From positions 1 through 50,944 of IMG/VR virus record IMGVR_UViG_3300030060_005619: a stretch of 50,944 nucleotides of DNA; one strand, 5' to 3'. Below the pieces are notes generated by a model, which saw nothing but the letters and a program-made list of their open reading frames with translations, was not told the origin of the DNA and made no database searches. Every line of letters starts with the position of its first letter. Positions within the stretch are counted from its first letter, which is position 1. Positions 1,196 to 49,887 of the stretch are shown one piece after another. Source of the DNA: a virus. The translations under genes and the position numbers were made by a program.

Positions 1196-1322
1196 TCACT
1201 TTCTCCAACAGCGTTTCTATTTGCTGCTCCATAACGGACAGCCGCTCATCAAGACCAAGAAGCAGCGTTACGATTCGCTCCGCCTCTTCTTGATCAAAGA
1301 TTATTGTCAGTTCGCCTTTCAC
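1095..1322 (-). CDS. small coiled-coil hypothetical protein (75 aa)
   Basis: Starts with GTG at 1322, overlapping the TGA stop of the alpha-CTD fusion gene as GTGA, a classic translational coupling junction. Residues 1-46 form a plausible amphipathic coiled coil (TLLLGLDERLSVMEQQIETL). The last about 30 residues are Arg/Ser/Asp-rich and low in complexity. They coincide with the out-of-frame overlap with the 73-aa gene, so this tail may be merely tolerated. Function unknown; the coupling to the regulator gene suggests a partner or modulator role (inference). Confidence 0.55.
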   Translation of the reverse strand: MKGELTIIFDQEEAERIVTLLLGLDERLSVMEQQIETLLEKVNELQHGKKSRNRRRSPVPRAGDADASGSDRDGA

Positions 1323-2197
1323 TTGTGGCCTTCGAGTTCGTTAATACGGATCTTTTCAGCCGCTTTATCGAAAATCTGTTGTGCCCTTGTTTTGGTGACA
1401 CCAAACGCGTCACCGATTTCACGGAACGTCTTACCGGATTGGCGCATCTCAAAGATTTGTCGGCTTCGATTGGTAATTTTGTACCTTGGTTGTCTGTGCG
1501 GTTGCTTGAGCGTCAAGTTGTATCTAGCCAACCCTTTTTTGATATCGGCCAAGCTGCCCTTGCCAAGGTTAGGGATCTTTAGAAGATCAACCTCGGTGCG
1601 TTGCACTAGCTCGCCGACGAATTCAATGTTGTCTCCCCGCAAACAATTTTGCGCACGGTAAGGCAAATCCAAAACATAAATGGAATTCAAAAGCACTGGG
1701 TTAGTCGGATCGACAGTCGTGTCCTCAACCGCGATTGTCTCTACGTTCACTACGTTGTCAGACCACGTCATTTGATCTCTGGCCCACGCACAGGCTTGTT
1801 CTGCCGTCCGCGCTTGCACGTTTTTCACAAGACTCGTTTGGATGATCGTGACGTCCCAGCTTTTTGAAGCTGCGCGGAGCAAGCCATTGACTTCAATTCG
1901 TTGCTCAAGGGTGCCGTTCCAAGACACCGACAAGCCCGAGTCGTTCAATTCCTTGCAAATTTTTTTGCCTACCCAAAGGCTCGATCCGAAAGCCAAGTTA
2001 CAGATTCCGGTTTCTTTCAGATCTTCCGCGTCTTGCTCGTGATAGAACACGAACCGCGATTCTTTGTTGCGAGGTATCTCAGCCACCCCATCGGACAAAC
2101 AAAACGTATGATGGGCTTTCGCAAAGAACCCCTCATCGCGGAGCACGGAAAACGCGTCGTCAATGCGACGTGCGATTTTGTTGGCGTCTTTATGCAT
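1319..2197 (-). CDS. RNA polymerase alpha-CTD / sigma region 4-like fusion protein (292 aa)
   Basis: The ATG at 2197 is used because GGCGGAGG lies upstream and it overlaps the stop of the 59-aa gene; an in-frame extension to 2323 would only reread that gene. Domains: residues about 11-105 resemble a DUF6891-like domain (FFAKAHHTFCL then FVFYHEQDAEDL then SVSWNG). About 112-165 is a small alpha/beta segment. About 169-231 clearly matches the RNA polymerase alpha C-terminal domain: the equivalents of E. coli R265 (R181), N268 (N184), G296 (G212) and S299 are kept, while K298 is Gly. About 243-284 resembles a sigma-70 region 4 helix-turn-helix (TFREIGDAFGVTKTRAQQIF). Known role of alpha-CTD: binds UP-element minor groove and activators. 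Known role of sigma region 4: reads the -35 box. Joining both in one phage protein suggests a transcription regulator acting with host RNA polymerase (inference). Confidence 0.85.
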   Translation of the reverse strand: MHKDANKIARRIDDAFSVLRDEGFFAKAHHTFCLSDGVAEIPRNKESRFVFYHEQDAEDLKETGICNLAFGSSLWVGKKICKELNDSGLSVSWNGTLEQRIEVNGLLRAASKSWDVTIIQTSLVKNVQARTAEQACAWARDQMTWSDNVVNVETIAVEDTTVDPTNPVLLNSIYVLDLPYRAQNCLRGDNIEFVGELVQRTEVDLLKIPNLGKGSLADIKKGLARYNLTLKQPHRQPRYKITNRSRQIFEMRQSGKTFREIGDAFGVTKTRAQQIFDKAAEKIRINELEGHK

Positions 2198-2369
2198 CGT
2201 CAAAAACCTCCGCCACAATGTCCACGGTGTACGTGTCGTCGCCCGTTTGGTCTTCATCCCAGACCCTATCTTCAATAGCCGCAAGCTTTGCTTCCTCAAT
2301 GCTTTGGGCTTCATCGTCCTCAATCCAAAAGACGTTTCGCTGAATCACTTCCACTTTATATCTAGGCAT
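2190..2369 (-). CDS. small acidic protein (59 aa)
   Basis: Reads MPRYKVEVIQRN and ends VDIVAEVFDDA. It begins 3 bp after the stop of the 110-aa gene, with GGGGGAGC as ribosome binding site, and its stop overlaps the start of the alpha-CTD fusion gene by 8 bp. The pattern of one beta strand, a helix rich in Ala/Glu, then another strand resembles the middle segment of the fusion protein and small phage proteins of the DpnD/PcfM type, but this is only a fold-level impression. Function unknown. Confidence 0.65.
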   Translation of the reverse strand: MPRYKVEVIQRNVFWIEDDEAQSIEEAKLAAIEDRVWDEDQTGDDTYTVDIVAEVFDDA

Positions 2370-2724: not shown

Positions 2725-2763
2725 TTGAAATGCGAGGATATGCGAGTTATCTTAGCTTTGCAA
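2725..2763. promoter_or_regulatory. candidate overlapping divergent promoters
   Basis: Plus strand: TTGAAA (2725-2730), 17-bp spacer, TATCTT (2748-2753), which would start transcripts near 2760 for the 88-aa gene. Minus strand: TTGCAA (2758-2763), 17-bp spacer, TATCCT (2735-2740), which would start transcripts near 2728 for the 110-aa gene. Each is four to five matches in each hexamer to sigma-70 boxes with optimal spacing. The two overlap, so they could not fire at the same moment, which would make a simple mutual-exclusion switch. Consensus matching only. Confidence 0.45.
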
Positions 2764-3240: not shown

Positions 3241-3582
3241 ATGCGAAAAGGCGAATCAATCGTCTATCGGTGGTGGGTCTGGTCCGACTGCAAGGATCAC
3301 AATGATCGCTCTGGCAGTTTCGACGAGCACGATACCTACGCGGAGGCTCACTTCTACTGCAACTACGCAGAGGGGGAGTTCATCGAGCTAGTCCGATCTT
3401 ACTGGGGCGATGAGGATGACGGTCTACTCGACCGCGACCACGCCACAGTCGAAGACGGCAAGCTTCCAGAGACTTATGACAATGGAAGCCAACCAATAGC
3501 GAAGAAGCTACACGCAGAGGTAAAAGCGGTTCACAAAGAGGTGCTCGTGCCTCTTGGTGCGGGCTTTTACCTCAAACTTTAA
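3241..3582 (+). CDS. hypothetical acidic protein (113 aa)
   Basis: No recognised family. Trp/Asp/Tyr-rich N-terminal half (YRWWVWSDCKDH), acidic middle, basic C-terminus ending GAGFYLKL. The ATG at 3241 is chosen because TTGGAGATAGTGAT sits immediately upstream, matching the leader of other early genes; in-frame upstream codons would run through the parS site. A rho-independent terminator follows at once. Confidence 0.6.
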   Translation: MRKGESIVYRWWVWSDCKDHNDRSGSFDEHDTYAEAHFYCNYAEGEFIELVRSYWGDEDDGLLDRDHATVEDGKLPETYDNGSQPIAKKLHAEVKAVHKEVLVPLGAGFYLKL

Positions 3583-3589
3583 AACCAAC

Positions 3590-3610
3590 AGGGGCTTCGG
3601 CCCCTTTCTT
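3590..3610 (+). terminator. rho-independent terminator
   Basis: GGGGC stem, TTCG tetraloop, GCCCC stem, followed by TTTCTT. Ends the transcript of the 113-aa gene; the next gene's ribosome binding site follows directly. Confidence 0.8.
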
Positions 3611-3627
3611 ATCAACGGAGAAAGTGA

Positions 3628-3837
3628 ATGAAATTATATTTAGCGCGTGTTACGTGCAATGAGGGTGGACACCACGTAGTTCAAGTTTTTAAAACGGCAA
3701 AAGAGCGCAAAAGATACATCGACGCCGTCCTAGACCAAGACGGTTCTTTTGAGATCGACAAACATACCTGCGAGTTCCCCGCGACCAAAGAAGGGATCGT
3801 CGCATTTTTTAATCGGAACGCGTGGCACATGCAGTAG
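3628..3837 (+). CDS. small hypothetical protein (69 aa)
   Basis: Compact alpha/beta-looking protein (MKLYLARVTCNEGG, then a Lys/Arg helix, then FFNRNAWHM) of no recognised family. Start supported by GGAGAAAGTGA directly before the ATG. It lies 11 bp upstream of the 64-aa Cys-containing gene, probably in one transcript. Confidence 0.55.
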   Translation: MKLYLARVTCNEGGHHVVQVFKTAKERKRYIDAVLDQDGSFEIDKHTCEFPATKEGIVAFFNRNAWHMQ

Positions 3838-3847
3838 GGGGCCGACA

Positions 3848-4042
3848 ATGACCGGATTCAGTTTTGAAAAGCCGAGCGGCAAAACAAGCGTTGAACGCCT
3901 CCACGCTCAGATGGACGGGCGGATGGCCGCGCTTTGCGGCAATGGCAGCGACAGGGTGATCCCCAGAGCGAAATTTCTGGAAAGCGATAGCCCTGATCGG
4001 TGCAAGCGTTGCGTTCAGAAGTTAGAGGGGGACGGGGAATAG
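3848..4042 (+). CDS. small protein with possible zinc site (64 aa)
   Basis: Starts at ATG 3848 with GGGGG 6 bp upstream. Contains ALCG and a CKRC pair (RCKRCVQKLE) plus one His upstream, which could form a small zinc knuckle. Such one-site Cys proteins are common in phage early regions. Function unknown. Confidence 0.5.
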   Translation: MTGFSFEKPSGKTSVERLHAQMDGRMAALCGNGSDRVIPRAKFLESDSPDRCKRCVQKLEGDGE

Positions 4043-4086
4043 GGCAAAGAACGCGGTTCGCGGCGCTTGGTGCAAAAAACGCGCTT

Positions 4087-4316
4087 CTATATAGTACTTT
4101 TCCCAGAAAAATATTTTTTGAAAAAACAATTTCAAAAAAGGCGGTACAGGCGGTACAGCGGTACAGCCCTTATAATACGTGGCCTGTAGCCGTACCGGCA
4201 GTGTACCACCGTGATTCACGCCGTTACGGGCTGAGGCAAAAAAGCCGTAACTACATAGCACTTTTCAGCAAAAAATTTTTTTCTTTTTTTTTGTTTTGGG
4301 AAAAAGTTCTATATAG
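4087..4316. other. AT-rich control region with iterons and an imperfect inverted repeat (candidate origin or operator)
   Basis: Part of the 354-bp gene-free gap 4043-4396. Outer arms CTATATAGTACTTTTCCC (4087-4104) and the inverse complement of CTATATAGAACTTTTTCCC (4298-4316) flank the region. Inside are three tandem GCGGTACAG/CGGTACAG units (4141-4166) abutting a perfect TATAAT (4171-4176). Two oppositely oriented GTACC elements follow (4192 and 4203), then long A and T tracts. Each arm begins a similar tract (ACTTTT then A-run), repeated again at 4255. Iterons plus AT-rich tracts are typical of replication origins; iterons at a -10 box are typical of repressor or activator control. The sequence cannot decide between them. 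Confidence 0.45.
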
Positions 4317-4340
4317 GAACCCGAATTAAGGAATGGGGTA

Positions 4341-4369
4341 TTGACAGTGCGCGCCAGCGTGTTGTTAGG
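4341..4369 (+). promoter_or_regulatory. candidate promoter with consensus -35 box
   Basis: Perfect TTGACA at 4341-4346, with a weak -10 (TGTTAG) after about 16-17 bp, 28 bp upstream of the ATG of the 119-aa gene. The -10 match is poor, so this is tentative. Confidence 0.3.
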
Positions 4370-4396
4370 CTGCGAGAAATCGCATAGGTGCTTGGC

Positions 4397-4756
4397 ATGT
4401 TTTTATTGTTCAAAAGACACTTTCAACTAGGGCAGCGTGAAAAAGAGCGTAAGGCGGCGCTAGCAGAAAAAAATCGTCGCTACTTAAAACAAGGGCAGGC
4501 TTTCGTCAATCATTGGAACGCTGTAGCCCAAACCAACGCAAGGCGGCAAGCCGAGTATGAAAAAACTTATGGGCAAGCTCATACTGCTTTCCTCGCCGCG
4601 ATGCGCTTACAAGCCAGAAAAAAAAGAATTGGGACCTTGTTTGCTGATCTAGAGTATGCGACATTGCGCGTACACCTAAACAAGGATGCGAATGATGAAA
4701 CTACTGAACACGACCGCCAGCAACACGAAGATCAAAAAAACGCAGAACAAACCTAA
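4397..4756 (+). CDS. basic helical hypothetical protein (119 aa)
   Basis: Lys/Arg/Gln/Ala-rich helical protein with a short hydrophobic start (MFLLFKRHF). The ATG at 4397 has AGGTG six bases upstream; a GTG three codons earlier is possible. The C-terminal 20 residues overlap the next gene in another frame. No family recognised; the composition suggests a coiled coil or nucleic-acid-binding helix. Confidence 0.5.
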   Translation: MFLLFKRHFQLGQREKERKAALAEKNRRYLKQGQAFVNHWNAVAQTNARRQAEYEKTYGQAHTAFLAAMRLQARKKRIGTLFADLEYATLRVHLNKDANDETTEHDRQQHEDQKNAEQT

Positions 4757-5414
4757 CAATTACTTCGGTAAACCGGTGCGTATGGCTAGCCTCAGCATGC
4801 TACCGGACCGCATTATCTGCGCCGGTAGTAAGGCCGCCGGATGCATGGATTTTTGCCTCAAAGAATCTGGACGCGCCCAATACAATCCTGATATCAACAT
4901 AGCCCGTCAAAAGAAAACCGATTATTGGCATTCCGACCAAGCCGGATTTCTCGCCCAACTCACGCGCGAATTATCAAACTTTCAAAAAAATGTCTGCGAA
5001 AGGCAAAACGTGCAAGGCGTGGTACGGCTTAACGTGCTATCCGATATTCCATTTGAAGATCACAACATACCGCAGCAATTTCCTGACCTGTTCTTTTACG
5101 ACTATTCAAAACGAGCAAACCGGCTAGGCAAAACGCCAGACAACTATCGCCTGATGTTCTCTTACAGCGACCGCCCTCAATACCGTAACCAAGTAGCCGC
5201 CGCGCTGCCGACGGGTGTCCCGATTGCAGTAGTTTTTAAAAATTCTATGCCGAGTGAATACCTTGGCCGCCGCGTTATTGATGGTGACTTGTCTGATCTT
5301 GATAACGTCATGGCCGGTCCGGTAGTGGTCGGGCTTACTGCCAAAGGTCCAGCACTGCACGATGATTCGGGTTTTGTTGTGGACGGGAATATGATCGTGA
5401 GGTTAGCGGCGTGA
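4692..5414 (+). CDS. GP88/DUF7227-like phage protein (240 aa)
   Basis: The features I associate with the mycobacteriophage gp88-like family are present in order. A Cys pair in GSKAAGCMDFCLKESGRAQY (about residues 46-65) is followed by an AR-x-KKTDYW segment and AGFLAQLTRELSNF. Next come VVRLNVLSDIPFED, FPDLFFYDYSKR, NYRLMFSYSD and a final GPALHDDSGFV. Family function is unknown; members are found in phages and plasmids. AAGG lies six bases before the ATG at 4692 (an in-frame ATG at 4686 is also possible). The start overlaps the end of the 119-aa gene by 65 bp. Confidence 0.7.
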   Translation: MMKLLNTTASNTKIKKTQNKPNNYFGKPVRMASLSMLPDRIICAGSKAAGCMDFCLKESGRAQYNPDINIARQKKTDYWHSDQAGFLAQLTRELSNFQKNVCERQNVQGVVRLNVLSDIPFEDHNIPQQFPDLFFYDYSKRANRLGKTPDNYRLMFSYSDRPQYRNQVAAALPTGVPIAVVFKNSMPSEYLGRRVIDGDLSDLDNVMAGPVVVGLTAKGPALHDDSGFVVDGNMIVRLAA

Positions 5415-5608
5415 TGCGTATGCGAATGCAAATGGCGCAGGTTATTTATTTAAAATCAGACGACTCTGATAAGGGCATGCGTCAGCAACAACGAATGGCG
5501 CAAAAGCTTGGTGATAAATCCTACCTAACGTCGGAATCCAAAACGGCGCTGATCGATATGCAACTCGAAATCAACAAAGCCGACCGGCTGCTGAAAACAA
5601 ACTTTTAA
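5414..5608 (+). CDS. small hypothetical protein (64 aa)
   Basis: Begins at the ATG overlapping the stop of the GP88-like gene (GTGATG), so it is probably translationally coupled. Met/Arg-rich start, then a mixed helical region (RQQQRMAQKLG) and a C-terminal NKADRLLKTNF. No recognised family. Confidence 0.45.
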   Translation: MRMRMQMAQVIYLKSDDSDKGMRQQQRMAQKLGDKSYLTSESKTALIDMQLEINKADRLLKTNF

Positions 5609-5698
5609 AAAAGCTTGCGCGGACGCACCAATATGCGATTATGCGCATGCGGCAAACATTTAGGGCGCACCGCACGCCCCACAATTGGAAAAGTGATT

Positions 5699-6832
5699 AT
5701 GCTAAATACCACGTTAGAGAACGCGAACGGAACGCTGGAAAACATCCTTCGACAGATCAGCGAGCAAGCAAGCCGGAAAGCCGACTACATTGCGCCGACC
5801 GATCAGTTGCAGGTGCAAACCCGCGACGGAAATACCAACATTGTGCTCGAGGCGAATGGCGGCATGCCGACTCAGCAATTCACCACAAACGAGATTGCAT
5901 TCCAGCAACTGGCTAGCAACTGCGATATCGACGTGAGGACCGCCCGCCGGTTACGTGATAACGACAACTATGCGCCGGAATTCGATAACCTAATTAACAA
6001 AATTCTGGTAAATGAACCGAAAAGCAAGATGCTCCGCACGTTTGATGGTGAGCAGCCGCTAGTGCGCGCCATCGTCAGCGATAAATTTAAGACGTTCGAC
6101 AATGTTGATCTGGTAGAAGCCGCGCTTCCGCAGTTAATGGAATCAGAAGCCGATTGGCAGATAGTGAACGGCACAGTCACTGACCATCGCCTGTATATGC
6201 GCCTGAAATCTGAGAACCAAGTAGCCGAGCCAGCCATAGGCGACGCCATGGCGAACGGGATTATGCTGCGAAATTCTGAGGTTGGAATGGGTAGCGTCGA
6301 GGTGATGCAGATGGTCTGGACCCTATGGTGCCTAAACGGATGCAGTAGCGAAAAGAAAAGCCGCCACACTCACGTCACCAGCGCACGCGGGACCGAAGAC
6401 TGGTCTCTACTGACTAGCGAAGCAAAAGACGCTGACAATCACGCGCTGCAATTGAAACTGCGCGACGTTGTCGCCGGTTATACTTCCCGCGACAGTTTTG
6501 ACGAAGCCGTCGAAATGTTCCGGATCGCGCACGGGGACATTGTCCCGAATGGTCTGGCGAATCCCGCCGCCGTCGTGGATAGCGTCGTCAAAGTGTTAAG
6601 TCTCCCGAAAAAATCGTCGGGGGATATAATGGCCGGATTGATGCAAACGATCCAGCAGAGCGGATACCGTGACAAGCCTATCAGCCGTGCAACATTAGTT
6701 AACGCGGTTACCGCCGTCGCGCACACTGCCGACGCGGATAGCGTCGACGATTGGTACGCGAACGGACGGGCCGTGCTAGATCTGCCGCGTAACCAATGGG
6801 AAACCATCGCGCAGACGCCACTAGCTGCCTGA
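5699..6832 (+). CDS. DUF932-like phage/plasmid protein (377 aa)
   Basis: Matches the DUF932 family layout. It has an N-terminal segment with the sequence IAFQQLASNCDIDVRTARRL, an LVRAIVSDKFKTFDN strand-helix core, and a central RLYMRL followed by GDAMANGIMLRNSEVGMGSV. A WCLNGC segment and a helical C-terminal domain follow. DUF932 proteins are widespread on plasmids and phages and of unknown biochemical function. The ATG at 5699 is chosen because TTGGAAAAGTGATT lies just upstream; the in-frame upstream extension reads a Cys/Arg-rich stretch unlike the family. A terminator follows 24 bp after the stop. Confidence 0.75.
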   Translation: MLNTTLENANGTLENILRQISEQASRKADYIAPTDQLQVQTRDGNTNIVLEANGGMPTQQFTTNEIAFQQLASNCDIDVRTARRLRDNDNYAPEFDNLINKILVNEPKSKMLRTFDGEQPLVRAIVSDKFKTFDNVDLVEAALPQLMESEADWQIVNGTVTDHRLYMRLKSENQVAEPAIGDAMANGIMLRNSEVGMGSVEVMQMVWTLWCLNGCSSEKKSRHTHVTSARGTEDWSLLTSEAKDADNHALQLKLRDVVAGYTSRDSFDEAVEMFRIAHGDIVPNGLANPAAVVDSVVKVLSLPKKSSGDIMAGLMQTIQQSGYRDKPISRATLVNAVTAVAHTADADSVDDWYANGRAVLDLPRNQWETIAQTPLAA

Positions 6833-6855
6833 TCAGGACCACCCACAAGCCCAAC

Positions 6856-6884
6856 AAGCCCGCCGCCGTGCGGGCTTTTCTTTT
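6856..6884 (+). terminator. rho-independent terminator
   Basis: AAGCCCGC / GCGGGCTT 8-bp stem, loop CGCCGT, then TTCTTTT. Same stem is reused at 7238 and 8238. Ends the DUF932-like transcript and abuts the TATACT promoter of the next gene. Confidence 0.85.
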
Positions 6885-6888
6885 GCAT

Positions 6889-6926
6889 GGGATTAATCTT
6901 ATACTGAGCGCACGCCATACCGGCGC
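6889..6926 (+). promoter_or_regulatory. repeated phage promoter/leader cassette, copy 1
   Basis: GGGATTAATCTTATACT (TATACT at 6900-6905), then CACGCC ATACC GGCGCA, a hairpin with a 4-bp CGCC/GGCG stem in the predicted leader, then TTGGAG. Highly similar to the cassettes at 7271 and 7868. There is no good -35 hexamer; the terminator T-tract lies in that position. Confidence 0.65.
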
Positions 6927-6945
6927 AGCATTGGAGTAATGAAAC

Positions 6946-7218
6946 GTGAACATAATGAAAAAAGAAAAGTTGTACCCGATTTTAGAAATTGAAACTGGTC
7001 GAATATTTTATTGGTCAATCGATCAAATTTTAGAAGAGATCAACAGAGACCACTCTGACGATTACACGCCATATGACGAGAATGATTGGCTGGATGGCTG
7101 GCGAGAATGGGTGGATGATCCGAAGGCTCAGGAAGGGGAGGCGTTCCTTAGGCTCCTAAGTGACGTTCATTGGTGCCGACAAGGTTCTGCGGGGCGCGAC
7201 GGCTACGCTCATACGTGA
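6946..7218 (+). CDS. small acidic hypothetical protein (90 aa)
   Basis: Acidic and Trp-rich (NDWLDGWREWVDDP). The start could be the GTG at 6946 or the ATG at 6955; the Shine-Dalgarno TTGGAG at 6930 favours the former. First gene downstream of cassette copy 1 and followed by its own terminator, so it is a single-gene transcription unit. No family recognised; small size and acidity fit a host-takeover protein (inference). Confidence 0.5.
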   Translation: MNIMKKEKLYPILEIETGRIFYWSIDQILEEINRDHSDDYTPYDENDWLDGWREWVDDPKAQEGEAFLRLLSDVHWCRQGSAGRDGYAHT

Positions 7219-7237
7219 TCGATCCCCCGACCCGAAC

Positions 7238-7264
7238 AAGCCCGCCGCCGTGCGGGCTTTTTTA
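7238..7264 (+). terminator. rho-independent terminator
   Basis: AAGCCCGC / GCGGGCTT stem with loop CGCCGT, then TTTTT. Nearly identical to the one at 6856, including the flanking AACAAGCCCGCCGCCGTGCG. Confidence 0.85.
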
Positions 7265-7270
7265 TTTGTG

Positions 7271-7312
7271 GGATTAGTCTTATACTCCCCGAACGCCACA
7301 AACCGTTGGCGC
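7271..7312 (+). promoter_or_regulatory. repeated phage promoter/leader cassette, copy 2
   Basis: GGGATTAGTCTTATACT (TATACT at 7281-7286), then AACGCCA ... TGGCGCA with a 5-bp stem (7294-7298 with 7307-7311), then TTGGAG. Same order as copy 1. Confidence 0.65.
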
Positions 7313-7331
7313 AATATTGGAGCGACGATAT

Positions 7332-7814
7332 ATGAATACCGATCACAAACTTGATACTGGCACGGCGCAAAATTTAAACTCATTACTTGAGAATAACGCC
7401 ACCAATAACATCGGAGACACGACGAAAGAAAACGTCTTCATGCCCGATTACCTAGACCGACTCGCCGCCGATCACGTGGAAGCCGGACTAGAGGCGACTG
7501 CTGCGGATATCAAAGCTGCCGCCTCTGAAATACGCAGACTCGAAAACCGAGCCACCTATTTAAAAGTAGCGGAAGAACTCGCCGAGCAAAAAATCGGCAA
7601 CTTGGCCGAGGCGCTGATAGCAGTGATGGAGACTGAACTGGATCAAAAAATCGAGGAAATTCTCGATAACAAAATCAGCGATGCGTTAGACGATTACGAC
7701 CCGACCGACCATCCCGACTTTGGTGATGCCGTTGATCGTCAAGTTCAAAATTCCAGCGTCGAGGACACGGTTCGCGATCTACTCGACAACGCGTCGGTTA
7801 GCATCAGCATCTAA
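7332..7814 (+). CDS. acidic coiled-coil hypothetical protein (160 aa)
   Basis: Very acidic, mostly helical (residues about 40-120 likely coiled coil, including ATAADIKAAASEIRRLENRA), ending in a short Ser/Ile tail. The start ATG at 7332 has TTGGAG upstream. Own promoter cassette and own terminator. Acidic helical proteins of this kind can be DNA mimics or host-factor inhibitors, but nothing here proves that. Confidence 0.6.
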   Translation: MNTDHKLDTGTAQNLNSLLENNATNNIGDTTKENVFMPDYLDRLAADHVEAGLEATAADIKAAASEIRRLENRATYLKVAEELAEQKIGNLAEALIAVMETELDQKIEEILDNKISDALDDYDPTDHPDFGDAVDRQVQNSSVEDTVRDLLDNASVSISI

Positions 7815-7833
7815 CCCCCAACAGCTCGCAACT

Positions 7834-7859
7834 AACCCCGCCAAGCGCGGGGTTTTTTT
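7834..7859 (+). terminator. rho-independent terminator
   Basis: AACCCCGC / GCGGGGTT stem with a short loop followed by TTTTTTT; different stem sequence from its neighbours but same position between gene and cassette. Confidence 0.85.
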
Positions 7860-7867
7860 ATGTCTGC

Positions 7868-7908
7868 GATAAAGCTTATACTTTCCGCACGCCGAGACGT
7901 TCGGCGCA
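7868..7908 (+). promoter_or_regulatory. repeated phage promoter/leader cassette, copy 3
   Basis: GATAAAGCTTATACT (TATACT at 7877-7882), then CACGCCGA GACGT TCGGCGCA, a 6-bp hairpin (7890-7895 with 7901-7906), then CGGAAAGAG as ribosome binding site. The upstream GGGATTA part is diverged; the -10 and the hairpin flanks ACGCC/GGCGCA are conserved. Confidence 0.6.
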
Positions 7909-7928
7909 ATCAATCGGAAAGAGTGAAA

Positions 7929-8219
7929 ATGGAAAACTTTAGAAAATATTTGGCAGACAATGGAATCGCTGGTTCGCGCACTTATTCGCTGGCTCAAGCT
8001 TTTAACCAAATGCATCGCGCATATTGCGAACTCGATTATCAAAACCGATATGCTTTTGATCTGATCTTTGGCCCTGACATTCGAGAAGGGCTAATCAAGT
8101 ACGCCGATCATTGTCCTTATGCGAACGCCGATCTTCGAGAGCACGTGCAAAAGTCTGTCGACGTTGAGATTGTTCGCGATGCGGATGTAGAGGATATCAA
8201 CGGCGTGATTCATTCTTAG
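7929..8219 (+). CDS. small hypothetical protein (96 aa)
   Basis: Starts at ATG 7929 after CGGAAAGAGTGAAA. Aromatic-rich middle (YCELDYQNRYAFDLIF) and acidic C-terminus; no recognised family. Third single-gene unit behind a TATACT cassette, ended by the terminator at 8238. Confidence 0.55.
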   Translation: MENFRKYLADNGIAGSRTYSLAQAFNQMHRAYCELDYQNRYAFDLIFGPDIREGLIKYADHCPYANADLREHVQKSVDVEIVRDADVEDINGVIHS

Positions 8220-8237
8220 CGAATTACCGGTTCGATC

Positions 8238-8265
8238 AAGCCCGCCAATGTGCGGGCTTTTTTTT
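8238..8265 (+). terminator. rho-independent terminator
   Basis: AAGCCCGC / GCGGGCTT stem with loop CAATGT, followed by eight T. Marks the end of the early region; a GC-rich gene-free block begins right after. Confidence 0.85.
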
Positions 8266-8280
8266 GGATTTTTTCCCAGT

Positions 8281-8570
8281 GCAACATGCGGCGCCCCGCC
8301 GCCCCCTTCCCTTGCAAAACGTACCGCGCACCGCGAGCCGTGCGCCGTGGGACATTTGCACCTGGTCAAAGAGATATCGCATACGATCCGCGCACCGTGG
8401 ACCGCAGCAACTGCGCATCGATCCGCGCGCCGCGATCCGCCGCCGCCGGTCGGCGATCCGCGCGCCATGGGCTAGGGTCCCCCCGCCAATAAAGGTTATC
8501 CGCGCAGCAAAAGACGCCGCCCGCGCTCCGCGCGCCGCGCGCCGTGGGCACGCGCAGCCAGCCGCGTACT
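8281..8570. repeat. GC-rich non-coding block with imperfect GATCCGCGC repeats (candidate packaging site)
   Basis: Most of the 457-bp gap between the 96-aa gene and terS. The core GATCCGCGC(A/G)CC(G/A)TGG or close relatives occur near 8333, 8385, 8419, 8454 and 8526. The block is far richer in G+C and CpG than the flanking coding sequence and is bounded by an AT-rich stretch at 8600-8670. Open frames through it are present on both strands but have Arg/Pro/Ala-only composition, so they are not genes. Its place directly upstream of the small terminase gene is where many phages keep cos or pac. The motif GTGGGCACGCG recurs at 14-24, at the very start of the window. Confidence 0.5.
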
Positions 8571-8635
8571 TGTGCAGGTTTCACGCAAACAATACGGCTC
8601 TGAAACAAATCGCTTTCACTGAATAAAAAAAGTGC

Positions 8636-9231: not shown

Positions 9232-9574
9232 TGTGGTTTGCACGCGGATCGAGAACAGTAGCACGCAGGGCATACCGGACTTGTTGTTACTCGACCGACA
9301 AAGCCAGTTTCACCTAATCGAACTCAAAGTAGCGAAGGGCAATAAAGTTTTGCTCAGTCCGCATCAGGTTTCGTTTGCAACGCGGCACAAGGACGCTCGC
9401 TTGTGGATCGTGGTCAAGAAGGATGACACCGTGCATTTGTACCGCGCGGACCAAGCGATAGACGTTTTTGAAGACGGCCTACGGGTCGCGGCCCACGGCA
9501 CGTTCACCAAGCCCGTGAACTGGTCAGATTTCCTCACCACCATTGAAACGCATAGGGTCCCCCTTGAACCTTGA
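9170..9574 (+). CDS. VRR-NUC / PD-(D/E)XK-like nuclease (134 aa)
   Basis: Shows the small VRR-NUC-type core: GIPDLLLLD with Asp37, then FHLIELK with Glu51-x-Lys53, then Gln66 in SPHQVSF, followed by strand segments LWIVVKKDDTVHLYR. These are the catalytic residues expected of the PD-(D/E)XK fold. Phage members are thought to act as Holliday-junction or branch nucleases clearing DNA before packaging. It is embedded between terS and terL, overlapping both, which supports a packaging-linked role (inference). Confidence 0.75.
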   Translation: MSNQTESSFWRQIKTGLSSTDVVCTRIENSSTQGIPDLLLLDRQSQFHLIELKVAKGNKVLLSPHQVSFATRHKDARLWIVVKKDDTVHLYRADQAIDVFEDGLRVAAHGTFTKPVNWSDFLTTIETHRVPLEP

Positions 9575-11036
9575 CACTCAAACAGAAGCGGACATTCAGG
9601 AACTTCGATTACAGCTTCGTTTGAAGCAATTAGAAAAGGTAGAAACTTGTAAAGCTGAATTTTTACCATTTGTCCGATCTATGTGGCCGGAGTTCATTGC
9701 GGGTCGGCATCATTATTTGATTGCGGAGAAGATGGAGCAGATTGCTTCGGGCAAGTTGAAGCGGTTGATCATCAACATGCCGCCGCGTCATACGAAGAGT
9801 GAGTTTGCTTCTTATTTGTTTCCGGCGTGGATGATTGGTCGTAACCCGTCGATGAAGATCATTCAGGCGACGCACACCACCGAACTGGCGGTAAATTTTG
9901 GCCGTAAGGTCAAGAATCTGCTCGAAACGGACGAATACAAGGAGATTTTTGACGATACGAAGCTATCTGCGGACAGTAAGGCGTCTGGCCGGTGGGACAC
10001 AAAGTCGGGTGGTATGTATTACGCGGTGGGTGTGGGGTCGAACTTGGCGGGGCGTGGTGGTGATTTGATCATTATCGACGATCCGCACTCGGAGCAGACG
10101 GCGATGTCGGCGAGTGGTTTCGAGAATGCGTGGGAGTGGTACACGGCGGGTCCCCGACAACGTCTCCAGCCGGGTGGTGCTATCGTTTTGGTGCAAACTC
10201 GGTGGTCAGAAAAAGACATGACGGGCAATTTGGTGCGTCAAATGACTAAGGACCCCTTTGCAGATCAGTGGGAAGTCCTTGAATTACCTGCAATTTTCGA
10301 GTCTGGTGAGCCATGTTGGCCTGAATTTTGGAAGAAGGAAGAGTTGGAGTCGGTAAAAGCGTCGATTCCTGCGTATCAGTGGAACGCGCAGTACCAACAG
10401 AACCCTACCTCCGAGACTTTGGCCATTTTGAAGCGCGAATGGTGGAATGTTTGGGAAAAAGACACGATTCCGAACCTTCAATACGTGATCCAGAGTTACG
10501 ATACGGCGTTCAGTAAGCGAGAAACCGCTGACTACAGTGCGATTACGACTTGGGGCGTGTTTTATCCCGAAGAAATTGGTGGTCCGGCGCATTTAATCTT
10601 GTTGGATGCCAAGAAAGGGCGGTGGGACTTCCCTGAACTGAAGGAAATCGCGCTAGAGCACTACAAATTTTGGGAACCAGAGACGGTTATTGTGGAAGCC
10701 AAGGCGTCAGGGACCCCTCTGACTCAGGAATTGCGTCAATTGGGCATTCCGGTGGTCAATTTTACCCCAAGCCGTGGTAATGACAAGCTTTCTAGGGTAC
10801 ACAGTATATCTCCGCTATTTGAAGCTGGTATGATCTGGGCACCTGATGAGTCTTGGGCGCACGAAGTGGTGGAAGAATGCGCTGCTTTTCCTAACGGGAC
10901 TCACGACGACTTGGTGGACAGCACCACACAGGCGCTGATGCGCTATCGGCAGGGTAACTTTGTGCAGTTGCCTACTGACGATTGGGAAGACAGTGACGAA
11001 TCGGTGAGTATCACGGCTGGGGCATACTATGGCTGA
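9564..11036 (+). CDS. terL: terminase large subunit (490 aa)
   Basis: Packaging ATPase/nuclease. Adenine and Walker A region INMPPRHTKSE (about residues 71-81), Walker B LIIIDDPH (Asp172/Asp173), coupling segment LVQTRW, then an RNase H-like nuclease domain with Asp at SYDTAFSK (about 313) and DDLVDS (about 448-449). Length is typical for the family. A TTG start at 9564 with AGGG upstream is preferred, giving an 11-bp overlap with the nuclease gene; an in-frame TTG at 9543 is possible. The last codons overlap the start of the polyvalent protein gene by 8 bp. Confidence 0.93.
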   Translation: MNLDTQTEADIQELRLQLRLKQLEKVETCKAEFLPFVRSMWPEFIAGRHHYLIAEKMEQIASGKLKRLIINMPPRHTKSEFASYLFPAWMIGRNPSMKIIQATHTTELAVNFGRKVKNLLETDEYKEIFDDTKLSADSKASGRWDTKSGGMYYAVGVGSNLAGRGGDLIIIDDPHSEQTAMSASGFENAWEWYTAGPRQRLQPGGAIVLVQTRWSEKDMTGNLVRQMTKDPFADQWEVLELPAIFESGEPCWPEFWKKEELESVKASIPAYQWNAQYQQNPTSETLAILKREWWNVWEKDTIPNLQYVIQSYDTAFSKRETADYSAITTWGVFYPEEIGGPAHLILLDAKKGRWDFPELKEIALEHYKFWEPETVIVEAKASGTPLTQELRQLGIPVVNFTPSRGNDKLSRVHSISPLFEAGMIWAPDESWAHEVVEECAAFPNGTHDDLVDSTTQALMRYRQGNFVQLPTDDWEDSDESVSITAGAYYG

Positions 11037-22027: not shown

Positions 22028-22068
22028 TATATTCAACTCATCCCTGACAGACGCATACCGCGTCTGAC
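22028..22068 (+). promoter_or_regulatory. promoter and leader hairpin downstream of the capsid terminator
   Basis: TATATT (22028-22033) after TGTG, then a 7-bp hairpin CAGACGC ATACC GCGTCTG (22048-22066), then ACAGGAG. Same terminator, -10 box, leader hairpin order as at 6889, 7271 and 7868, and the loop ATACC is identical to that of copy 1. Confidence 0.55.
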
Positions 22069-22091
22069 ACTGGCCACGACAGGAGATCACA

Positions 22092-22601
22092 ATGGCTAAT
22101 ACAACTTTTTCGGGTGCGGTTAGATCTGAAAGCACCTTCAAAACCGTCAGCAAAAACGCCACTACCGGGGCATTCACCGAGGTAGCGACGTTAGGCGACG
22201 GACCGGTAAGTTTGTCCGATGGAGACGTAACACTTACTAACGCAACTCATAGCGGAAGAATCTTACTTGTTCCAGACGGTGGTCAAGATAATACTTATAC
22301 GCTTCCGGCTCCTATTGCTGGATCTGTTTTTAAGTTTGTTTACGCTGGTGGCGCTGCTGATGCTACGGACGCGCTTATTGTTACTCCCGGCAACACTAAT
22401 TTTTATATTGGTGGTGTTACTTTCTTAGATACGGACGGTAACGAAGTTAGTTCAGTATTCTCTGATGGAAACTCCAACAGCAGCATACAGTTGAACGTTC
22501 CTGCTGGGTTTGAAGTAACCATAATCGGGCTTAATACGACCAATTATCAGATTTTTGGGAATGTAACGAGCACTACTGCGCCTGCTTTTGCTGACCAGTA
22601 A
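22092..22601 (+). CDS. putative virion structural protein (169 aa)
   Basis: All-beta, Thr/Gly/Asn-rich protein beginning MANTTFSGAVRSESTFKTVS, with GRILLVPDGGQDNTYTLP and TNYQIFGNVTSTTA. Looks like a decoration or head fibre protein. First gene behind the internal promoter, so it can be expressed separately from the capsid gene. No named family recognised. Confidence 0.65.
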   Translation: MANTTFSGAVRSESTFKTVSKNATTGAFTEVATLGDGPVSLSDGDVTLTNATHSGRILLVPDGGQDNTYTLPAPIAGSVFKFVYAGGAADATDALIVTPGNTNFYIGGVTFLDTDGNEVSSVFSDGNSNSSIQLNVPAGFEVTIIGLNTTNYQIFGNVTSTTAPAFADQ

Positions 22602-49806: not shown

Positions 49807-49836
49807 TTGACACATGCGATTTTATGGGATTATTCT
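49807..49836 (+). promoter_or_regulatory. candidate sigma-70 promoter in the divergent gap
   Basis: TTGACA (49807-49812), 18-bp spacer, TATTCT (49831-49836). The -10 area reads GGGATTATTCTTGTCT, which matches the start of the early cassettes (GGGATTAATCTTATACT). Downstream is GCTAACGCCGC but no full hairpin. Would serve the genes from 49888 on; the gap also must contain the helicase promoter. Confidence 0.5.
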
Positions 49837-49887
49837 TGTCTTGGGAAGTGGCTAACGCCGCTTGAAACATGAAAAACGAGGACGACG

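Follow-up and report, generated by a model that had tools for sequence, protein, structure and literature searches.

What would keep one set of control signals in front of small genes that are unrelated to each other? The question is raised by the window analysed here, a whole virus record of 50.9 kb (50,944 nt) that encodes a terminase large subunit (9543-11036), a portal and a major head protein, and that contains a Mu-gpT-DE RNA. Between a DUF932-like gene upstream (5615-6832) and the small terminase gene downstream (8677) it holds three units (6856-8260), each running from terminator through TATACT promoter, leader hairpin and ribosome site to a small gene (Table 1). We propose, with a probability of about 0.6, that this is an accessory-gene locus of one-gene units, in which a host sigma70-type promoter would produce an mRNA with a hairpin closing its 5' end, an ompA-like stabiliser. 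The proposal builds on what can be read off the sequence itself: the architecture, the fixed spacing, the compensatory changes in the stem, the conservation in relatives, and a replacement of genes from the start codon onwards.

Layout of the array in the window

A sequence-only reading of this DNA had described three copies of the same ordered arrangement, each small gene having a control set of its own. Motif, terminator and covariance-model scans confirm the order and the places, and all three genes have a predicted promoter, leader and terminator. The motif GGGATTARTCTTATACT, with up to three mismatches, matched three times in the window against a chance mean of 0.11, and none of 100 shuffles reached three. 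For CTTATACTNNNCGNACGCC, again with up to three mismatches allowed, the sole matches were three exact ones, one per site; 8 of 100 shuffles gave three looser matches. The terminator scan returned 6856-6877, 7238-7259 and 7834-7854, plus a fourth hit, 8238-8259, behind the third gene. A 58-position covariance model, whose training set included all three window copies, found these three at E values from 4e-15 to 7e-11 and nothing further under E=0.15.

Table 1. Features of the three-unit array, with analyses behind some of the assignments.
Feature	Position	Strand	Basis
Terminator serving the DUF932-like gene upstream; shares its T-run with the promoter 1 -35 region	6856..6884	+	terminator scan, spacing statistics
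Promoter 1 (predicted): TGCATGGGATTAATCT and -10 TATACT (6900-6905); predicted start A 6912	6884..6905	+	motif scan, copy alignment
Leader hairpin 1: CGCC-ATACC-GGCG, 4 bp, 5-nt loop	6913..6925	+	copy comparison, folding, covariation
Ribosome site behind hairpin 1: CAGCATTGGAG, with GGAG	6933..6936 (GGAG)	+	
Small gene 1: 90 aa, acidic, GTG start	6946..7218	+	
Gene 1 terminator; shares its T-run with the promoter 2 -35 region	7238..7266	+	terminator scan
Promoter 2 (predicted): TTTGTGGGATTAGTCT and -10 TATACT (7281-7286); predicted start A 7293	7265..7286	+	
Leader hairpin 2: CGCCA-CAAACCGT-TGGCG, 5 bp, 8-nt loop	7294..7311	+	
Ribosome site behind hairpin 2: GGAG	7319..7322	+	
Small gene 2: 160 aa, very acidic, helical/coiled-coil-like, slot-gene family 0	7332..7814	+	
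Gene 2 terminator; shares its T-run with the promoter 3 -35 region	7834..7861	+	terminator scan
Promoter 3 (predicted): TGTCTGCGATAAAGCT and -10 TATACT (7877-7882); predicted start A 7889	7861..7882	+	
Leader hairpin 3: CGCCGAGACGTTCGGCG, 6-7 bp	7890..7906	+	
Ribosome site behind hairpin 3: CGGAAAG	7915..7921	+	
Small gene 3: 96 aa, slot-gene family 4, predicted all-helical	7929..8219	+	
Terminator of gene 3, closing the array	8238..8266	+	terminator scan

The GC content of the three small genes (slot genes below) is 0.465, 0.493 and 0.450, slightly lower than the 0.516-0.519 of the flanking genes. An Rfam search of 6700-8300 gave nothing above gathering score, the best sub-threshold matches sitting on the terminators; elsewhere in the window, the Mu-gpT-DE RNA (RF03012, 67.6 bits) was found at 22042-22094, just downstream of the major head protein gene. 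The stretch from the third unit to the terminase genes (8270-8600) looks noncoding, is GC-rich and has many repeats resembling CCGCGCACCG or GCGCGCCGTGGG; it could be a packaging or replication site.

The element in marine relatives

We gathered relatives through TerL in IMG/VR and through pattern scans. These yielded 58 distinct copies of the element, in marine relatives that are metagenome fragments; the copies are not all independent. Two of the 58 (L115 and L132), on contigs of no shown kinship, have a consensus sigma70 promoter with a hairpin at +2; they were excluded from the 56-copy statistics and from the covariance model. The copies precede at least ten unrelated families of small genes, which bears out the earlier claim that the control parts are conserved while the genes differ; conservation of the motif in relatives, set beforehand as a test, was thus found.

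The conserved core is not the GGGATTA that had been proposed. Across relatives it is TATGCG (or TGGG), then 8 nt, then TATACT or TATAAT; TAGACT, or TACAAT in shifted register, also occur at the -10. Downstream of the -10 come six nucleotides, an A, an optional second A, the stem, mostly CA, and the ribosome site, with the start codon 18-24 nt past the stem. The A, seventh base after the -10, is present in 58/58 copies and in the window coincides with the starts that the sequence-only reading had predicted at 6912, 7293 and 7889, and the distance from -10 to stem is 7 or 8 nt only across the 58 distinct copies. The third window copy had been called more diverged. It is indeed a variant, but not a decayed one, for relatives with the same gene (L006, L008, L012 and L092) have preserved this form.

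A terminator lies immediately upstream in 50 of 56 copies. Its stem mostly ends 20-22 nt before the -10, so that its T-run falls at the place expected for a -35 hexamer with 18-nt spacing. Copies with no terminator there, or with a more distant one, have TTGnnn (TTGCGC, TTGTGG, TTGTTC) at the -35 place.

Searches beyond these relatives yielded little. Many matches of the pattern scans in viral contigs were chance matches inside genes and were dropped. The cassette pattern matched six times in 257 Gb of genome contigs, about the estimated chance level, in unrelated MAGs and with nothing cassette-like; there was no cellular match to the element. A TerL search of the genome contigs found no host or prophage, and a nucleotide search with 20 kb of the window found no match among phage records. 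The stretches examined of 023Pt_psg01 and HTVC027P held no convincing cassette. We found no description of the element in the literature searched, a search outside of which most subscription literature fell. In the cultured-record relative phage DSL-LC04 (L142, OR003939.1), a CATACAGGAGAAA leader is repeated ahead of several small genes (3580-6169), in some cases behind a hairpin near a predicted -10; this is perhaps the same design in other letters, and is suggestive only.

Promoter-like sites with TATGCGA or TATGGGATTATTCT were also seen ahead of early-type genes in the window (2733-2753 and 49808-49840, the latter with TTGACA 18 nt upstream of TATTCT), and in relatives TATGCGATATCCCATA lies ahead of a GP88-like gene; in this phage group TATGCG may belong to promoters more generally. 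The window further encodes (1319-2323, minus strand) a predicted protein that joins DUF6891 to an RNA polymerase alpha C-terminal domain (7e-18) and sigma70 region 4 (1e-5). Its relatives are near full-length in the L098 record (G019, with internal stops) and comprise the N-terminal part only in L004 and L092. It is possible that this protein is a phage transcription factor able to read the TATGCG element.

The leader hairpin and its possible role

The stem comprises 4-7 bp. In 58/58 copies it begins one or two nucleotides past the invariant A, at +2 or +3 relative to the predicted start. Among 19 distinct 17-nt hairpins that align without gaps every one of the 114 cells is paired, with 19 double changes against 4.5 in shuffles, and in a wider set of 33 sequences 96.9% of cells are paired, with 29 double-change cells against a shuffled mean of 9.2, a covariation of 0.413 against 0.159 shuffled, and slid partners only 20-57% paired; the shuffle control is inflated by related sequences and the copies were chosen for possessing a stem, so the variety of pairs weighs more. 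Pair 4 occurs as CG, UA and UG, pair 5 as GC, CG, AU, UA and GU, and pair 6 as CG, UG and AU. When arms from different copies are mixed, full pairing results in only 31%. A matrix built from the sequence up to the -10 alone recovered sites nearly all of which have a stem at +2/+3; finding stems without any hairpin sequence, it indicates that the promoter-hairpin link is no artefact of the search. By itself the hairpin has a folding energy of -5.5 to -12.6 kcal/mol, and it is retained in the minimum-energy leaders of 57 of the 58 copies; the 4-bp stem of the first window copy has -6.0 kcal/mol, a modest stability as in 4-bp copies generally.

These compensatory changes make RNA the most likely level at which the hairpin acts. 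The same observation bears on the reading of the inverted repeat as a DNA operator just past the start, bound by a repressor or a phage regulator, like the proposal for the ESAS of Adephagia. A repressor would fit the +2 position, the outer stem bases CGC...GCG are invariant, and a conceivable regulator exists in the protein at 1319-2323 with its alpha C-terminal and sigma region 4 domains; nevertheless the inner stem bases vary yet stay complementary, which recognition of a DNA site does not require, and pairing persists while arm length and spacing vary. We consider an operator quite unlikely.

In its formal make-up the unit resembles the SAS and ESAS elements of cluster K mycobacteriophages, in which a SigA-like promoter, an inverted repeat and a ribosome site are repeated before unrelated small genes (PMC3203893, PMC11373665). 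Both elements combine these three parts, both precede unrelated small genes and both are conserved between related phages. They differ in that the 13-bp GGGATAGGAGCCC at the start codon is absent here, where the ribosome sites are TTGGAG, ATAGGA or CGGAAAG; in that an RNA-type stem of 4-7 bp and changing sequence at +2 stands here in place of the imperfect, conserved 15-17 bp repeat of ESAS; and in that the adjoining terminator is part of the unit here.

How might the leader work as RNA? The -35 region of each promoter would sit in the T-run of the preceding terminator, and the host housekeeping sigma factor would read the promoter. Transcription would start at the invariant A, leaving one or two free nucleotides ahead of the stem. 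The hairpin would then close the 5' end of the mRNA and slow its decay by hindering both the removal of the 5' pyrophosphate and the 5'-end-dependent attack of RNase E, and a newcomer gene placed behind the constant leader would be expressed at once and independently. Stem-loops at the 5' terminus stabilise the bacterial mRNAs ompA and papA; in E. coli, a hairpin at the 5' end hampers RppH and makes bla mRNA more stable, though some mRNAs gain no stability from a closed 5' end (reviewed in PMC3997798). The present leaders resemble those of ompA and papA in having a stem-loop within one or two nucleotides of the start (here a predicted one), followed by a single-stranded ribosome-site region; the compensatory changes seen here accord with pairing conserved as RNA. 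The ompA and papA stem-loops are in leaders of single genes, whereas the present element is a repeated, co-varying phage module known from sequence.

Stabilisation would be the simplest role that needs pairing yet tolerates changes of stem and loop. Against a pure stabiliser counts that the loops, often AnACC, are more constant than that role needs. An RNA-binding protein of phage or host might instead recognise the hairpin, making all slot genes one post-transcriptional regulon. The AnACC loop recurs in most families, the flanking A(+1) and CA are nearly constant, and stem and loop type are alike among copies of one lineage, as if following one binder. Shared ancestry also accounts for similar loops, however; the slot of the 7929 gene has a different loop (GACGT/GACAT), and the stem varies from 4 to 7 bp. 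A regulon of this kind seems to us unlikely.

We also considered an antitermination signal like lambda nut or put, through which polymerase would pass the closely spaced terminators. A terminator does end every unit, and a 4-6 bp stem with a 5-nt loop is about the size of boxB, but the boxA that lies upstream of boxB in a lambda-type nut site is missing: a hairpin at +2/+3 leaves it no room, and none was seen in the leaders inspected. Read-through would moreover be unnecessary because each unit has its own promoter, and we regard antitermination as very improbable.

One lineage dispenses with the hairpin. L031 (420-2190) has three terminator-promoter units with the same promoter and without the leader hairpin, CAACA and CGGAG being kept. 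The hairpin is therefore not indispensable; in this lineage the module works hairpin-free, or another feature substitutes. L031 offers a natural control for the hairpin's role.

Fixed slots and exchanged genes

In relatives, one to four units of differing content stand between conserved flanks, and nearly all relatives that show both flanks have them between the DUF932-like and small terminase genes; L021, arranged differently, is the exception. In the larger records strong covariance-model matches are confined to this slot region. The window has a single gene in each unit, but this is not so everywhere: some units of relatives contain two, for instance family 1 ahead of family 3 in L005 and L098.

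Homology between the window and L113, L098 and L009 spans the upstream gene, terminator, promoter and hairpin as far as 6941-6944; the gene beginning with the start codon at 6946 is unrelated, and homology resumes at 7194 (L113 and L098; 25 nt ahead of the stop) or at 7238 (L009; the terminator). Likewise, L109 and L008 are 95% identical up to 3679, two bases ahead of the start codon, and match again from 4122. That homology breaks off at the start codon and returns close to the gene end indicates that genes are exchanged behind constant leaders, and by this sequence comparison gene 1 of the window replaces other gene families at its slot. The leaders of L109 and L092 are identical over 51 nt and serve different genes, and the first leader of the window is 96% identical to leaders of another family; leaders shared in this way ahead of unrelated genes belong more to the slot than to the gene.

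These boundaries also bear on the earlier suggestion of a mobile expression unit, that is, a cassette able to copy itself into new places. Several near-identical copies per genome would suit it. The copies nevertheless lie within one syntenic region, no inverted repeats flank the units, and the boundaries of exchange fall within the unit, at the start codon. With slots syntenic and strong model matches only there, it is the genes that appear to move, and we judge a mobile cassette extremely improbable. An old duplication of units is plausible, the copies within one genome being alike. Tentatively, and at rather less than even odds, we suggest that leader and terminator act as sockets, short shared homologies that would guide recombination across the phage population so that whole accessory (anti-defence) genes are swapped, between start codon and gene end, and expression is kept. 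If so, this phage group would maintain a stock of counter-defence genes that can replace one another and are each expressed on their own.

Phage morons are accessory genes with their own promoter and terminator, found in lambdoid and other phages; they differ from neighbouring genes in base composition and, in the classical cases, are expressed independently in a lysogen. Like them, the present units are single genes amid conserved core genes, with a predicted sigma70 promoter and terminator, variable presence and likely host-interaction functions. What differs is that in the window and its relatives many units have one standard leader in common, its hairpin placed where the message would begin, and that genes are replaced behind this leader. 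The units would thus be of moron type, in a new form. They are a natural counterpart of a synthetic-biology design, in which exchangeable genes are framed by a standard promoter, a 5' hairpin, a ribosome site and a terminator.

What do the slot genes encode? The downstream proteins, mostly acidic, form ten families without mutual similarity at E 1e-4 by BLAST, a split that leaves very remote kinship between families possible; two further singletons, on the contigs of no shown kinship, are outside this count. The three slot proteins of the window had no informative match, and peptide patterns found no relatives of the 6946 protein in IMG/VR. Weak Pfam/NCBIfam matches of the 7332 protein (Radical_SAM, SafD) were below curated cut-offs and were disregarded. 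One family, found in relatives (L085, L087 and L146) and absent from the window, matches the profile of Ocr-like anti-restriction proteins (PHROG 2568; E 6e-10, 3e-7 and 2e-7), and its proteins are strongly acidic, with a pI of about 4.2. This exchanged family thus resembles the Ocr-like proteins (T7 gene 0.3) in profile and acidity, as a prediction. Structures predicted for the 7929 protein and for the Ocr-like family, each with a mean pLDDT of 69, had no PDB match below E=4. From the one Ocr-like family, together with small size, acidity and turnover, we infer that the slot genes probably have counter-defence or host-takeover functions. As at least one family looks anti-restriction, the contents of the slots are candidate new counter-defence proteins, and the covariance model provides a sequence signature for spotting accessory genes in marine phages that have not been cultured.

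Upstream of the array, the window encodes a GP88 family protein (4686-5414; PF17338, 3e-32), a family well known in mycobacteriophages. The relatives of its neighbour, the DUF932-like gene, among phage records are likewise mainly in mycobacteriophages.
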